Assembly: GCF_025965855.1 (NCBI RefSeq)
Contig: NZ_JAOPWB010000137.1
Coordinates: forward strand, 1-64,000
Direction: 5' to 3'
DNA from: Mycobacterium sp.
GTDB taxonomy: Bacteria; Actinomycetota; Actinomycetes; Mycobacteriales; Mycobacteriaceae
DNA length: 64,000 bases
Shown here: positions 24,014 to 54,684 of the stretch, piece by piece
How the letters are laid out: each line of letters starts with the position of its first letter
Numbering within the stretch: position 1 is the first letter of the stretch
Translations under genes and position numbers: made by a program
The notes under the pieces: generated by a model
The model's database searches: none
What the model saw: only the letters and a program-made list of their open reading frames with translations
What the model was told of the DNA's origin: nothing

Positions 24014-25786
24014 TCAGCGCGCTCCGCGCACCAGGCGGCCGGGGCGGGCCCCGGTGTCGACATCGTTACGGCGGGTCACCGTCCCGCTGACGATCGTCGC
24101 GGCGTAGCCGCTCGCGCCCTGCAGGATCCGGTGGCCGCCGGCGGGCAGGTCGAAGGCCATCGCCGCGGGGTGCAGTCGCAGGGCGTCCATGTCGACCACG
24201 TTGATGTCGGCCTTCTTACCGGCTTTGATGGTGCCGCGGTCGGTGAGGCCGAACAGATGCGCGGTGTCGCGGGACTGCTTGCGGATCACGTATTCCAGCG
24301 GCAACTTCTCGCCCCGGTGACGGTCCCGCGCCCAGTGCGTCAGCAGGAAGGTGGGATAGGAAGCGTCACAGATCATTCCGCAGTGGGCGCCGCCGTCGGA
24401 GAGCCCCAATACGCCCGCGGGGTGCATCATCATTTCCCGGATCGCGTCGCAGTTGCCGTCGGCGTAGTTGAAGAGCGGCAGCATCAGCATGTTGCGCGCG
24501 TTCGACTCAAGCATGAGGTCGTAGAGGGTAGCCAGCGGGTCCTCGCCGCGCTCCTCGGCGATCGCCGCGACGGTGCGGTCGTGCGCGGGCTCGTAGTCGG
24601 GGGGATCGCCGAGCGCGTAGAGACGGTGCAGTGAGTGCTGCACCAGGGCGAACATCCCGTCGAACAACATTGCCGGGTCGACGGGCAGATCGTCCTCGGA
24701 AAGGATCGCCGCCTTCACCGCGGGATCGGCGAGGCGCTGCGCGAGCTCCTCGCGGCTGCATTCGGCATCGAGCCTGCGGTACGTCGGCCGGTGACTGAAG
24801 CCGTGATGCCCCTGGAAACCGATCATCATGCCGAACGGACGCGCCGCGATCTGCGGGTGCAACCGGCTGCCGGCCTCATGCGCGGCCGCGGACAGGTCCA
24901 ACTGCTCGCGCCAGAGTTTCGGGTCGGCGTCCACCTGGATGAGGGCGAACGACACCGGCCGGTCGATTTCGGCGCCCAGCCGCCGCATCCACTCCAGTTC
25001 CTTCTTGGGTGCGACGATGTCCTCGCCCGCGGCCCCCTGCGGGGCCAGCTCGAACACGGCCTGACCGCCGGCCGCCATCGCGCGCCCGAGACCGAACAGT
25101 TCTTCCTCGGCGGCAAAGGTGCCGGGTACGGGCTCGCCGTCCATCGCGCGGTGGCCCAGCGTGCGGGAGGTCGAAAACCCGAGCGCGCCGGCCTCGATCG
25201 CTTCGGTGACCAGCCGCGCCATGGCCGCGATGTCGTCGGGCGTGGCCGGCTCGTTACGGGCACCCCGCTCGCCCATCGCGTAGGCGCGGATGGCGCCGTG
25301 GGCGACCTGGCTGCCCACGTCGATCGCGAAGTTCTGCTTGCCGATGGCGTCGAGGTACTCGGGGTAGCTCTCCCAGCCCCAGGTGATGCCCTCGGTCAGG
25401 GCGGTGCCGGGGATGTCCTCGACACCCTCCATCAATGCGATCAGCCAGTCTTCGGCGCCCGGCCGCACCGGTGCAAATCCGACACCGCAGTTGCCGGTGA
25501 CCACGGTGGTGACTCCGTGACCGCTGGACGGCTCGAGCAGGCTGTCCCAGCTCACCTGGCCGTCGTAGTGGGTATGGATGTCGACGAACCCGGGGGCCAC
25601 CAGATGCCCTGTCGCATCGATGGTTTCGGCAGCATCGGCCATCTCCAAGCCGGCCATCTCGGGGCCGTCGGCGCCGCGCCGCACGACGTCGACGATCACG
25701 CCGTCCTTGATGCCGATGTCAGCCCGATAGCGCTCCCCGCCCGTGCCGTCAACGACAGTGCCACCGGTGATCTTCAGGTCGAACAT
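24014..25786 (-). CDS. N-acyl-D-amino-acid deacylase family amidohydrolase
   Basis: [61 protein letters not shown]. Confidence 0.92.
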
Positions 25787-25834
25787 GAGGGCCTCTCCTC
25801 GTCGCCATGCACTGTCGCCGTCAGACACACGGCA

Positions 25835-25857
25835 TTACGCTACGCTACGTAGCGTAA
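25835..25857. promoter_or_regulatory. Perfect inverted repeat / candidate TetR-type operator
   Basis: TTACGCTACG-CTA-CGTAGCGTAA; contains the perfect 14-bp palindrome ACGCTACGTAGCGT; 49-71 bp upstream of the amidohydrolase start. Confidence 0.7.
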
Positions 25858-38525: not shown

Positions 38526-39698
38526 TCAGCGCAGCTGCTCGGTCGGTACGCCGTAGCGGTCCTGATAAGCGCTCACCCGGTCGCGGACGTCGGCGGCGTC
38601 CAGGCCAGTGTCCGACCACCTGTAGCGGCTGCCCCCGCCGTCTCCGGGATGGGCGGCCAGGAAGTCACGCATGCGCTGCGCGGTGTCGGGCCGCAGCTCG
38701 CGGCCCAGCCTCCGATAGATGTCCTTGATCGTGGTCCCGGGGTCATTCATGAAATCGGTGAACAACACGTCGATCACGCGGCCGGCGGGGACCGCGCCGC
38801 TGTCGCGCATCGTCATTTCACGCTCGAGGCCGACGACGATCTCTTCGTAGGACTGCGCCGCGCACTCGGCGATGTTCGATTCGTCGCTGGCCATCCGCCG
38901 GAGGTGGTGGGTCAGCGCGGCGATTGACGAGATGACGTTGAGGGGATCGCGGTGCGTCTGCACGATCAACGCGTCGGGGTATTCGGCGAGTAGGGCGTCG
39001 AGGTGCCACAGGTGTGCCGGCGATTTCAGGAGCCACTGACCGGAAAGGCCGGACTGCAGGTGCTGCAGGAAGATTCGGTGGAAGCGGTAGGCGCCGGCAT
39101 GATCCGCCTCATACAGCAGCCAGCGGTAGTAGCTCGGCAGCCGGTACTGCACCGAGAAGATCATGCTGACGAACTCGCCGGCCGTGATGCGGACGCACTC
39201 CTGCCCGACGAGAGCCCCCATCGGGTGAAACGCCAAGAATCCCGGGATGATCTGCTCGGAGAGCTCGATGCCGGCCTGCGTCTGCGCGATCCGCGGATCG
39301 GTGTGGTAGGTCTCGGGCTGCGGGACCGGGCAGGGCGCATCGACCTCCCAGGTCAGCGGCGCGCGCAGCTCGGGGTCTTGGGCGAGCAGGTCGTAGAGGA
39401 TCGTGGTGCCGGTGCGGGGCTGGCCGACGATGAAAATCGGCGCCTTGATCGGCTTGCGGGAGACCTCGGGATGTTTTTTGCGCCAATCGATTACGCCGAG
39501 CCGGTTCTTCAGCGCGCGCATGATGTCGAGGTAGGCGATCTCCACACCGATCGCCGAGAGGCGAGCCTCGTTGATCAGCCCGTCGGTGAGCCGCTGCAGC
39601 CCGGGCTGCCAGCCGTCCTCGCCGAAGTCGTCGCTTCCCGCTTCCTCGCAGGCGGTGGCGACGAGCCGTTGCGGGACGAACCGCTCCTGCAGCGTCAT
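38526..39698 (-). CDS. Sulfotransferase family protein
   Basis: PIFIVGQPRTGTTILYDLLAQDP 5'-PSB motif; VQTHRDPLNVISS 3'-PB motif. Confidence 0.92.
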   Translation of the reverse strand: MTLQERFVPQRLVATACEEAGSDDFGEDGWQPGLQRLTDGLINEARLSAIGVEIAYLDIMRALKNRLGVIDWRKKHPEVSRKPIKAPIFIVGQPRTGTTILYDLLAQDPELRAPLTWEVDAPCPVPQPETYHTDPRIAQTQAGIELSEQIIPGFLAFHPMGALVGQECVRITAGEFVSMIFSVQYRLPSYYRWLLYEADHAGAYRFHRIFLQHLQSGLSGQWLLKSPAHLWHLDALLAEYPDALIVQTHRDPLNVISSIAALTHHLRRMASDESNIAECAAQSYEEIVVGLEREMTMRDSGAVPAGRVIDVLFTDFMNDPGTTIKDIYRRLGRELRPDTAQRMRDFLAAHPGDGGGSRYRWSDTGLDAADVRDRVSAYQDRYGVPTEQLR

Positions 39699-40798
39699 GC
39701 CCGGCCCACTCCTTCGCGGACCGACACGGAGACGTCGGGCGGGCTGGGGTTGTCCAGCCAGCGCACGACCACGAACCCGCGATGGCGGCCACCGGTGTCG
39801 AGCCACTGGCCGAATCCGAAGTCCTCCGCCGAGATTGAGATCCGCACCCGCCCGTCCTCGCCGGGCCGCACCGCACGATTGGTCACCGAGCTGTGCCGTC
39901 GGCGGGGCTCCAGGCACTCGTGCCAGACGTTTTCCAGCGTCACGTTCCAGTAGCGAGTGTCGGGTGGCTCGATGTCGAGCACGAGCGCCTGGCCGGGCTG
40001 CAGCCGGAAGGTTCCCAACATGTACAGGTTGTCCGGGGTGGTGTCGGCCGCGCCCAGATCGGCGGCCTCGGAGGTCAGCAGCGTGTTGGGGTTATCCAAG
40101 AGCTCGGGCTTGATAGTGCGGTGCAGCGTAACGAGTTTCATCAGCGACCACGCCATCGCGGTGAACTGCTGGGCGAGGTCGCCGTCGGTCAACGGTGCCA
40201 CGGGGTCGCGGTCCAGCGCGTCGATGCGCATGGTGGCCAGCGTCTCGGAGGCGGGATCGCCGATATATTCCCGGACGACGACCGATGATGCGTCGTCGGG
40301 AGTCTTCACCCACTGGGCGCCGGCGAGTTCGGCAGGTTCTTCCGCCGATAGCACCAACGCGAATTCGTCGCCGCTCAGCACCAGGTCGTTGTCGCTGACA
40401 TAGTTGGCCATCCGGCGGGGGGTCAGGCCGGTGCCGGCGAGGATCTGAAATCCAAGGTAGGCACTTGTGCCGCGGGTGCCGGTGATCCGGTAGCGCCGGT
40501 CACCGCGGATCATCGCCAGGTAGTAATTGCCGTCGGGGTTGGGCCCACCGATCATCCTTGTCGGAGAACACATGTCGAAGAACGACGGCCGGTCGGGGTC
40601 GGCCTCGACGGAAAGCTGCGAGCACAACGACGAGACGCGGGCGATGACGCGCAGCCCTTCGAGGAGTTCCCGTTCCGATTCGGCGTCCTCGGTCACGATC
40701 TTGGTGACATCGGTCAGCATCTGCTGGAAGAACTGCCACGCCGCACGCGCCTTCGGGGCGACCTGCTCCGAGGGCTCCGACACCAGATTTTGAGACAT
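39695..40798 (-). CDS. DUF1214 domain-containing protein
   Basis: PDGNYYLAMIRGDRRYRITGTRG, NRAVRPGEDGRVRISISAEDFGFGQWLDTGGRHRGFVVVRWLD; ATGA overlap with sulfotransferase. Confidence 0.8.
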   Translation of the reverse strand: MSQNLVSEPSEQVAPKARAAWQFFQQMLTDVTKIVTEDAESERELLEGLRVIARVSSLCSQLSVEADPDRPSFFDMCSPTRMIGGPNPDGNYYLAMIRGDRRYRITGTRGTSAYLGFQILAGTGLTPRRMANYVSDNDLVLSGDEFALVLSAEEPAELAGAQWVKTPDDASSVVVREYIGDPASETLATMRIDALDRDPVAPLTDGDLAQQFTAMAWSLMKLVTLHRTIKPELLDNPNTLLTSEAADLGAADTTPDNLYMLGTFRLQPGQALVLDIEPPDTRYWNVTLENVWHECLEPRRRHSSVTNRAVRPGEDGRVRISISAEDFGFGQWLDTGGRHRGFVVVRWLDNPSPPDVSVSVREGVGRA

Positions 40799-40822
40799 AG
40801 TCTTATGCTTAGACTATGTCTC
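40792..40822. promoter_or_regulatory. 12-bp perfect inverted repeat spanning both start codons
   Basis: GAGACATAGTCT-TATGCTT-AGACTATGTCTC. Confidence 0.8.
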
Positions 40823-41433
40823 ACTCGTTGGCAACCGATTCTGGTGGAGATCGTGAGCGAATGTCGCTAGCCGAACGTAGGCGCACGGCGACGCGTCGGC
40901 GCATCGCTGAGGCGGCAGCCCAGCTTGTTGGCAGCGTTGGTCTGGCGGGTGCGACGGTGGACCGAATCGCGGACACGGCAGCCATCGGGCGCGCGACCTT
41001 CTTCCGCTACTTCAACTCGAAGGAAGACGCCGTCGCCGAGGGCATGAATGCCCATTGGCTGAACCGCATCACCAGCGCGCTGGCCGCCCAGCCGGCGGGC
41101 CTGTCTGCCACCGAGGCCGTCGTCGGCGCCTTCCATGACCTCGCCCTCGGATTCGCCGAAATAGAGGACCAGGTTCGTGAATTAGCCACGCTGACAAGGT
41201 CATCCGAGACGCTGGATGCCTGGACGCTGCGCATCTATGTCCGGTACGAATCGGCGATTGCCGAACTTATCGCGCCGCGGATATCCCAATTGGCTCCCCA
41301 GGATGCCCGGCCTCGGCTGATCGGTGCGTTGGCGATGGCGGCTGTGCGCGTCGCCCTGGACGACTGGCTGACCCACGGGGGATCGCTACCCGACCGGGTG
41401 CGTCAGGGTCTGTCCGCGATCACGATCGGGTAA
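40816..41433 (+). CDS. TetR family transcriptional regulator
   Basis: AQLVGSVGLAGATVDRIADTAAIGRATFFRYFNSKEDAV HTH; alternative ATG at 40861. Confidence 0.93.
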   Translation: MSHSLATDSGGDRERMSLAERRRTATRRRIAEAAAQLVGSVGLAGATVDRIADTAAIGRATFFRYFNSKEDAVAEGMNAHWLNRITSALAAQPAGLSATEAVVGAFHDLALGFAEIEDQVRELATLTRSSETLDAWTLRIYVRYESAIAELIAPRISQLAPQDARPRLIGALAMAAVRVALDDWLTHGGSLPDRVRQGLSAITIG

Positions 41434-52336: not shown

Positions 52337-53098
52337 TCAGCCGCCCACCATCATCAGGCCGCCGTCGACGGCCAGCAGTTGCCCCGTGATGAAGCCCGAG
52401 CCCGGGCCGGCCAGAAACACCAGCATCGGCCCGACGTCTCGCGCGGCGTCTCCCAGCGTCCCGCCGAGCGGAATCATCATCTGCATCTGCTGGTCGATGA
52501 GGGCCCCTGCCTCCGGACCGAGGAACTCGCGCAAACGGTCGGCCCCGGCCGTCTGCACCGCCGGTGCCAAAGCGTTGACGGTGACATTGTCGGCGGCCCA
52601 CGCTTTGGCGGCCGATCGTGTCCAGGCCTGCACCGCGCCCTTGGTCGCGGCGTAGACGGCCGAGATGGGGCTGCCCATAACGGCTTCGGAAGACCCGAAA
52701 TTGATGATCCTGCCGCCCTTGGGATTTTGGTCTTTCATCACCGCGTAGGCCGCCTGGTTGGTCAGGATGGTGGCCTTCACGTTGGTGTCCAACAGGAACG
52801 AAATCTCGTCGACGCCGATGTATCCGGGGATTCCGGCCTGCCATAGCCCCGCGGCGTTCACCAAGACGTCGAGCCCGCCAAGGCGCTCGACCGCTTGTTG
52901 CACCATCGCGGAAACGGCTTCGGCTTCGCGCACATCGCACTGCAGCCATGTGGCCGTGAGGTCATCCGGCGGCGGGGTCCGGTGGTAGGTGGCAGCGACC
53001 CCGGCCCCCGCCGCGCCGAGGGTTCGGACGGCGGCCGCGCCGATTCCGGTCGCTCCGCCGGTAACCAGGATCCGTCGGCCATGCAGCGCATTTTCCAT
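52337..53098 (-). CDS. SDR family oxidoreductase
   Basis: GRRILVTGGATGIGAAAVRTLGAAGAGV; NAAG; SAVYAATKGAVQAWTRSAAKAWA. Confidence 0.95.
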   Translation of the reverse strand: MENALHGRRILVTGGATGIGAAAVRTLGAAGAGVAATYHRTPPPDDLTATWLQCDVREAEAVSAMVQQAVERLGGLDVLVNAAGLWQAGIPGYIGVDEISFLLDTNVKATILTNQAAYAVMKDQNPKGGRIINFGSSEAVMGSPISAVYAATKGAVQAWTRSAAKAWAADNVTVNALAPAVQTAGADRLREFLGPEAGALIDQQMQMMIPLGGTLGDAARDVGPMLVFLAGPGSGFITGQLLAVDGGLMMVGG

Positions 53099-53108
53099 GC
53101 CCGCGAGC

Positions 53109-53154
53109 GTAACGCCACGGCGAAATTCCGCTCGATTTTTCGCCGTGGCGTTAC
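53109..53154. repeat. 17-bp perfect inverted repeat (strong hairpin)
   Basis: GTAACGCCACGGCGAAA-TTCCGCTCGATT-TTTCGCCGTGGCGTTAC between hydrolase and SDR genes. Confidence 0.85.
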
Positions 53155-53177: not shown

Positions 53178-54008
53178 CTAGGCGCGCACGGCGATAGACG
53201 ACAGCAGGTCGGCGAGCCGCTCCGGCTGGTCGAGCATGGAGAAGGTCCGCGCTCCCTCGATCACCTCCAGGCGGGCGTTCGGGATCGTCGCAGCCAGCCG
53301 TTCGCCGTCCCCGAGCTCGAAGAACACGTCGTCGGCCGACCAGGCGATGAGCGCGGGCTTGTCGAATTCGTGCAGCCGCGCAGCGACGCCGGTGGTGACC
53401 TCCGTGCGCATCGAGAGGGTGAACTGGCGCAGGTCCTCGGCGATGGCCGGATCTGAGAGCCCCGGGCGGACCCACTCTTCCGTGAGGTCGTCGATGTTGC
53501 GGTGGGCCAGGCCGTCGAACGCGCGCTTGCGAGCGGCCGGCACGCGCATGGCCTGGGCCACGGTCCGAAACATCGTCTTGGACTTGGCCGCCAGGATCAC
53601 CGGCTTGAGGATGGGCGGCGGGAAGTGTTCGAACGCATCGCAACTGGTGAGGACCAGCGCACCGAGCCGCTCGGGATGGTGCACCGCGACGAGCTGCGTG
53701 ACCACCCCGCCGGTGTCGTTGCCGACCAGTACCACGTCCTCGAGGTCGAGAGCGGCAAGCACCTCGGCGACGATGCCGGCGACGCCGTTGATGGTGCGGT
53801 CGGCGCCGGGTCGCAGCGCCTGCGGGTGCGCACCCAGCGGCCAGGTGGGGGCGATGCAGCGCAGACCGAGATCGGCGAGGCGTACGCCGACCTGGCGCCA
53901 CAGTTGCCCGCCCATCATGTATCCGTGCACGAACACGACGGGCCTGCCGTCCTCGGGTCCGGTTGCTTCGTAATGGATAGTTCCGGCATTAATGTCGATC
54001 GTCGACAT
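53178..54008 (-). CDS. Alpha/beta hydrolase
   Basis: PVVFVHGYMMGGQLWRQV, VVLVGNDTGGVVTQLVA nucleophile-elbow region. Confidence 0.92.
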   Translation of the reverse strand: MSTIDINAGTIHYEATGPEDGRPVVFVHGYMMGGQLWRQVGVRLADLGLRCIAPTWPLGAHPQALRPGADRTINGVAGIVAEVLAALDLEDVVLVGNDTGGVVTQLVAVHHPERLGALVLTSCDAFEHFPPPILKPVILAAKSKTMFRTVAQAMRVPAARKRAFDGLAHRNIDDLTEEWVRPGLSDPAIAEDLRQFTLSMRTEVTTGVAARLHEFDKPALIAWSADDVFFELGDGERLAATIPNARLEVIEGARTFSMLDQPERLADLLSSIAVRA

Positions 54009-54033
54009 AGCTAGCTCCCACCTTCGAGATACA

Positions 54034-54060
54034 CTTACAAACAGGCTGTCTGTTCGTAAG
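54034..54060. promoter_or_regulatory. TetR operator candidate
   Basis: CTTACAAACAG-GCTGT-CTGTTCGTAAG (10/11 arms) between divergent hydrolase and TetR. Confidence 0.75.
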
Positions 54061-54075
54061 TTACCAACAGGTTGT

Positions 54076-54684
54076 ATGGAAATCAAGAGACGGACTCAGG
54101 AGGAGCGCTCCGCGGCGACCCGTGAGGCGCTGATCTCGGCCGCGCGCAAACTGTGGGGCCTACGCGGGTACGCGGAGGTGGGGACGCCGGAGGTCGCCAC
54201 GGCCGCGGGCGTCACCCGCGGCGCGATGTACCACCAATTCGCCGACAAGGCAACGCTTTTCGCCGAGGTCGTCGAAGCCGTGGAGCAGGATGTCATGGCC
54301 CGGATGGCCACGCTGGTCGCCGAGTCGGGGGCGACGACCCCCGCCGATGCGATCCGGGCCGCCGTCGACGCCTGGCTCGATGTGTCCGGCGATCCGGAGG
54401 TGCGGCAGCTGATCCTGTTGGACGCGCCGAGCGTCCTTGGCTGGGCCGCCTTCCGCGACGTCGCCCAGCGCTACAGCCTGGGAATGACCGAACAGCTGCT
54501 CATCGAGGCCATCAAGGCGGGTCAGCTGGCCGATCAACCGGTGCGGGCGCTGGGCCATGTGCTGATCGGTGCGCTCGACGAGGCGGCCATGGCCGTCGCC
54601 ACCGCCGATGATCCGAAACGTGCCCGCCGGGAGATCGGGGAGGTGCTGCACCGGCTGATCGGCGCGATGCTGGACGAGCGTTGA
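54076..54684 (+). CDS. TetR family transcriptional regulator
   Basis: GYAEVGTPEVATAAGVTRGAMYHQFADKATLFAEVVEAV. Confidence 0.93.
   Translation: MEIKRRTQEERSAATREALISAARKLWGLRGYAEVGTPEVATAAGVTRGAMYHQFADKATLFAEVVEAVEQDVMARMATLVAESGATTPADAIRAAVDAWLDVSGDPEVRQLILLDAPSVLGWAAFRDVAQRYSLGMTEQLLIEAIKAGQLADQPVRALGHVLIGALDEAAMAVATADDPKRARREIGEVLHRLIGAMLDER

Follow-up and report, generated by a model that had tools for sequence, protein, structure and literature searches.

The start codons of a tetR-family gene and of a divergent DUF1214 gene both lie inside a single palindromic element at positions 40791 to 40823 of the window, that is, of the whole stretch of 64,000 nucleotides of Mycobacterium sp. DNA that was analysed. 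Comparison with relatives resolves this palindrome into two 15-bp dyads, each centered on one of the two ATGs. The reading that best explains the element, and that we consider probable, is that it would serve as a leaderless bidirectional promoter placed under a two-dyad TetR operator, acting locally, through which TetR would autoregulate its own gene and repress the DUF1214-sulfotransferase genes. This reading follows from the placement of the putative -10 elements, from the leaderless initiation known in mycobacteria, and from the 18-bp spacing of transcription start sites (TSSs) in bidirectional promoters.

The palindrome and its genes

The DUF1214 gene (39695 to 40798, minus strand; 367 aa) was assigned through Pfam PF06742 (31.1 bits, cutoff 25), and its predicted leaderless start is at 40798. 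The gene facing away from it (40816 to 41433, plus strand; 205 aa), with a predicted leaderless start at 40816, belongs to the TetR family, as its product combines a TetR_N helix-turn-helix domain (PF00440, 39.8 bits, cutoff 24) with a helical regulatory C-terminal domain, TetR_C_14 (PF17754, 40.9 bits, cutoff 22.7), both from Pfam. On the minus strand, a sulfotransferase gene (Sulfotransfer_3, 38526 to 39698) begins with an ATG that overlaps the DUF1214 stop codon (ATGA, 39695 to 39698), and the two genes probably share an operon.

The first-pass annotation had described perfect 12-bp arms; the arms are indeed perfect, but they extend to 13 bp, with the left arm TGAGACATAGTCT (40791 to 40803) and the right arm AGACTATGTCTCA (40811 to 40823) being 100% complementary across a 7-nt spacer, TATGCTT. 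The left dyad, TGAGAC-ATA-GTCTTA (40791 to 40805), is centered on 40798, the A of the DUF1214 ATG (40798 to 40796, minus strand), and the right dyad, TTAGAC-TAT-GTCTCA (40809 to 40823), is centered on 40816, the A of the TetR ATG (40816 to 40818, plus strand). The dyad centers are 18 bp apart, as are the two starts, and the inclusion of both ATGs in the palindrome, the 17 bp between them, and the opening residues MSQ and MSH of the two proteins all agree with what had been reported at first. N-terminal residues such as these can be dictated by a DNA element, and not by the function of the protein.

In first-order Markov sequence, perfect 13-bp arms separated by no more than 20 nt would arise about 0.13 times per 64 kb, and when up to three mismatches were allowed, the element was found once in the window versus not at all in 100 shuffles. 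It is present as a single copy in the whole 6.15-Mb genome, and on this ground the possibility that it is the end of a mobile element was rejected. The genus-wide conservation described below is far stronger evidence than this estimate of chance occurrence.

Elsewhere in the window, an inverted repeat with perfect 17-bp arms (GTAACGCCACGGCGAAA and TTTCGCCGTGGCGTTAC, 53109 to 53154), operator- or terminator-like in appearance, lies just upstream of an SDR-type ORF (52337 to 53098, minus strand) and past the end of a hydrolase-type ORF (53178 to 54086, minus strand). An operator-like dyad, TTACGCTACGCTACGTAGCGTAA (25835 to 25857), stands immediately upstream of an amidohydrolase-type ORF (24014 to 25828, minus strand).

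Conservation of the dyad pair and its variant forms

A search for orthologues in 199 genomes of the genus found close TetR orthologues in about 70, with M. interjectum, M. triplex, M. asiaticum, M. gordonae, M. scrofulaceum, and M. colombiense among the named holders. The conserved unit in the intergenic DNA of 70 loci consists of two GAGACnnnGTCTC-like dyads with centers 17 or 18 bp apart. At a threshold of at least 16 of 20, the dyad pair was detected upstream of tetR in 63 of these 70 orthologue loci, whereas all 581 control windows (300 bp each, taken from the same loci) lacked it. More distant forms of the TetR occur in Gordonia and Lentzea, and dyads precede those homologues too. Of 401 genomes of the family, 8 carried the full 18-bp form, and all 8 belong to this genus. 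The initial description of an operator-like element over both starts is supported by these data, because, across the genus, the element is kept at this gene pair and is absent elsewhere; the corrections to it are the 13-bp arms and the composite structure. One genome (G162; locus L019, L170, L172) has its DUF1214 match split into two frames and has lost the operator beside tetR, which together suggest a decaying copy of the locus.

Elsewhere in the window's own genome, as in nine relatives, single-dyad matches stayed at control level, and no regulon was seen in them. One such match, a dyad with one mismatch (TTAGACCATGACTCA, L073 1501 to 1515), covers the ATG of a phosphoribosyltransferase-type gene in another part of the genome; as matches of this kind are at control level, it is best taken as chance rather than as a regulon site. 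The divergent-ATG geometry showed no excess genome-wide, with 11 matches against about 16 expected from a base-composition estimate and 2 in a reversed control; the 10-bp divergent geometry gave 10 matches.

The arrangement of dyads and genes varies within the genus. In one group (group C), the TetR ATG is 10 bp from the left dyad center, and CATAGT occupies -12 to -7 in 24 of 24 loci. Another (group D) consists mostly of loci in which DUF1214 lies downstream on the same strand; the dyads still precede tetR there, and TANNNT is found at -12 to -7 of a start set on the right dyad center in 13 of 15. In an insertion clade (L024 1 to 1470; L168, L169, L082, L093, L011), an acetamidase/formamidase-family gene (PF03069 in L024, where it adjoins tetR) or other DNA separates DUF1214 from tetR. 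The DUF1214 gene of this clade retains a single perfect dyad centered on its ATG and a full TANNNT at -12 to -7, without a TANNNT copy at -18, and its tetR, about 1.6 kb from that dyad, has lost its own. These 18-bp, 10-bp, same-strand, and single-dyad forms provide a natural series in mycobacteria in which the mutual constraint of operator, promoter, and start codon might be tested.

In a sister group (group B; M. scrofulaceum, M. colombiense, M. nebraskense, and others), the palindrome is kept, the TetR start sits about 40 bp or more downstream behind a purine-rich Shine-Dalgarno (SD) sequence, and the palindrome ATG is often out of the TetR frame or stopped almost at once (MS* in L020, L022, L026, and L081). 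The TetR tree, several deeper forks of which are weak, places nearly all SD-start loci in one group within the 18-bp loci; together with the leaderless-type starts of the outgroups, this makes the SD-led start look derived. In this group, the tetR mRNA would begin with a leaderless upstream ORF opened by the palindrome ATG, and the candidates, found in the four loci just named and also in L006, L012, and L018, are either a minimal ATG TCT TAG or an out-of-frame overlap with tetR. We see an even chance that the locus is a conserved leaderless bidirectional promoter with one ANNNT core as the -10 of both strands and a repressor dyad centered on each start codon, so that one and the same sequence acts as operator and promoter and encodes the first codons of both proteins, and that the sister clade keeps an operator-imposed leaderless upstream ORF (for example AUG UCU UAG).

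Start codons and a putative shared promoter

Reading frames point to the palindrome as the start of both genes. In 48 of the 49 distinct loci with 18-bp spacing, the left-dyad ATG is in the DUF1214 reading frame, despite an N-terminus of varying length. The right-dyad ATG shares the TetR frame in the window's clade as well as in the M. asiaticum, M. gordonae, and related groups, where differences in TetR length are multiples of three and several loci have no other in-frame ATG or GTG. The codon-position signal of the opening TetR codons, from the palindrome up to residue 16, was uninformative either way.

Mycobacterium tuberculosis uses a TANNNT -10 element and frequently produces leaderless mRNAs (PMC3898074), and in mycobacteria, leaderless initiation requires a 5' ATG or GTG, which is also sufficient for it (PMC4633059). 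For a transcript beginning at the A of either ATG, the -10 is expected at -12 to -7. At this position, the candidate tetR -10 is TATGCT (40804 to 40809, plus strand), a full TANNNT at -12 to -7 of 40816, and the candidate DUF1214 -10 is AAGCAT (40805 to 40810, minus strand), which lies at -12 to -7 of 40798 and has no T at -12. A-11 and T-7 are present in both directions in 48 of the 49 distinct 18-bp loci, the window included. With this 18-bp spacing of the starts, A40805 and T40809 would serve both strands, such that one ANNNT (40805 to 40809) is common to both candidate -10s. Where bidirectional promoters have shared -10 symmetry, their TSSs are most often separated by 18 bp and commonly also by 10 bp, and polymerases heading in opposite directions exclude each other (PMC12825309). 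Of the spacings given for such promoters by Warman and Grainger (about 18, 10, or 23 bp), the sequence geometry corresponds to 18 bp here and to 10 bp in group C.

Taken together, these features suggest how the locus may operate. The ANNNT core would provide the key -10 bases to both strands and, because this one core supplies both -10s, RNA polymerase would start tetR at 40816 or the DUF1214-sulfotransferase transcript at 40798, but not both at once. Both mRNAs would be leaderless, each beginning with its own AUG. TetR dimers bound to the two dyads would mask both +1 positions as well as the -10 common to the two strands, and since the site lies exactly over both starts, one binding event should silence both genes, which would remain repressed until a putative ligand releases TetR.

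The first-pass annotation had posed a choice between two leaderless transcripts and internal starts such as ATG 40861, and this choice is now largely decided in favor of leaderless starts by the DUF1214 frame and by the codon at 40861, which is not kept. An arrangement in which only DUF1214 starts at the palindrome and TetR at 40861, putting the right dyad at the start of a tetR leader about 45 nt long, would draw on the SD-like GGTGGAG 11 nt upstream of that ATG (40843 to 40863 together, plus strand) and on the use of an SD-led ATG at about this distance in group B. We nevertheless regard it as unlikely, as the corresponding codon is ATC in five of the nearest relatives (L004, L078, L080, L083, and L084) and TTG in L005, the palindrome ATG is the only or best in-frame start in these loci, and the palindrome frame is kept across the clade; the ATC codons in particular make 40861 improbable as a general TetR start.

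It is also doubtful that both genes start at the palindrome ATGs with leaders of about 6 nt, transcribed from TANNNT copies inside the dyads. Such copies do exist, at -18 to -13 of DUF1214 in 45 of the 49 two-dyad loci and as TAGTCT at 40798 to 40803 (plus strand) in the window, but about half of the 18-bp loci are without the plus-strand copy, ATC replacing ATA, and groups C and D have their -10 at -12 to -7 of the start. The single-dyad insertion clade lacks the -18 copy while keeping TANNNT at -12 to -7, which favors the -12 position for the DUF1214 -10. The same clade provides an argument for a different regulator as the owner of the dyads, with the neighboring TetR not the binder, as its dyad stays with DUF1214 while its tetR is distant and dyad-less. 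However, the dyads precede tetR where DUF1214 is not divergent, as in group D, and upstream of the Gordonia and Lentzea homologues, and local TetR repressors usually have a single locus-specific operator next to the tetR gene, all of which leaves another regulator very improbable. The preferred reading, a leaderless bidirectional promoter beneath a TetR operator, would also help to correct the start-site annotation of both genes.

Relation to known systems

Among openly licensed papers, a search for the operator sequence returned only an unrelated Alu paper, a search for DUF1214 with mycobacteria returned nothing, and the combination of leaderless starts, a bidirectional promoter, and a double operator was not found described, which within that body of literature is weak evidence of novelty. 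TetR repressors of the QacR type place two dimers on one operator, and the composite operator here would likewise be able to hold two dimers, although on two separate 15-bp dyads, 17 to 18 bp apart.

A closely similar promoter arrangement is that of PacrA/acrR in Escherichia coli, a bidirectional promoter controlled by the TetR-family repressor AcrR (PMC12825309). In both systems, a single bidirectional promoter lies between a tetR-family gene and its divergent target and is repressed by the TetR protein, with polymerases competing for it; the promoter, the competition, and the repression are predicted in our case. Unlike in PacrA/acrR, both start codons here would coincide with +1 and each is the center of an operator dyad; the passages of PMC12825309 consulted describe no leaderless starts for acrR/acrA. 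The clpC2 gene of mycobacteria (PMC10030653) offers an actinobacterial parallel, as an autorepressor acts there on repeated palindromic operators over the promoter of an apparently leaderless gene. However, the clpC2 operator lies 1 to 2 nt upstream of one gene only and is not centered on two start codons, and ClpC2 is not a TetR protein.

MftR of Mycobacterium smegmatis, which responds to long-chain acyl-CoAs, shares the TetR_C_14 C-terminal family with the TetR described here and likewise has a palindromic operator conserved across mycobacteria (PMC8728441). The dyads do not resemble the MftR operator, whose core is T-N2-GGCA-N5-TGCC-N2-A and which lies well upstream of mftA, at -78 to -52 of the start codon in M. 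tuberculosis (PMC8728441). Identity with MftR was rejected, as the TetR scored 92.6 bits against the NCBIfam equivalog TIGR03968, for which the cutoff is 224.9. Each ingredient of the locus is separately known from systems such as these, and their combination, in which leaderless genes, a bidirectional promoter, and a double TetR-type operator are predicted to be joined within 33 bp, is an unusually compact form of a familiar switch.
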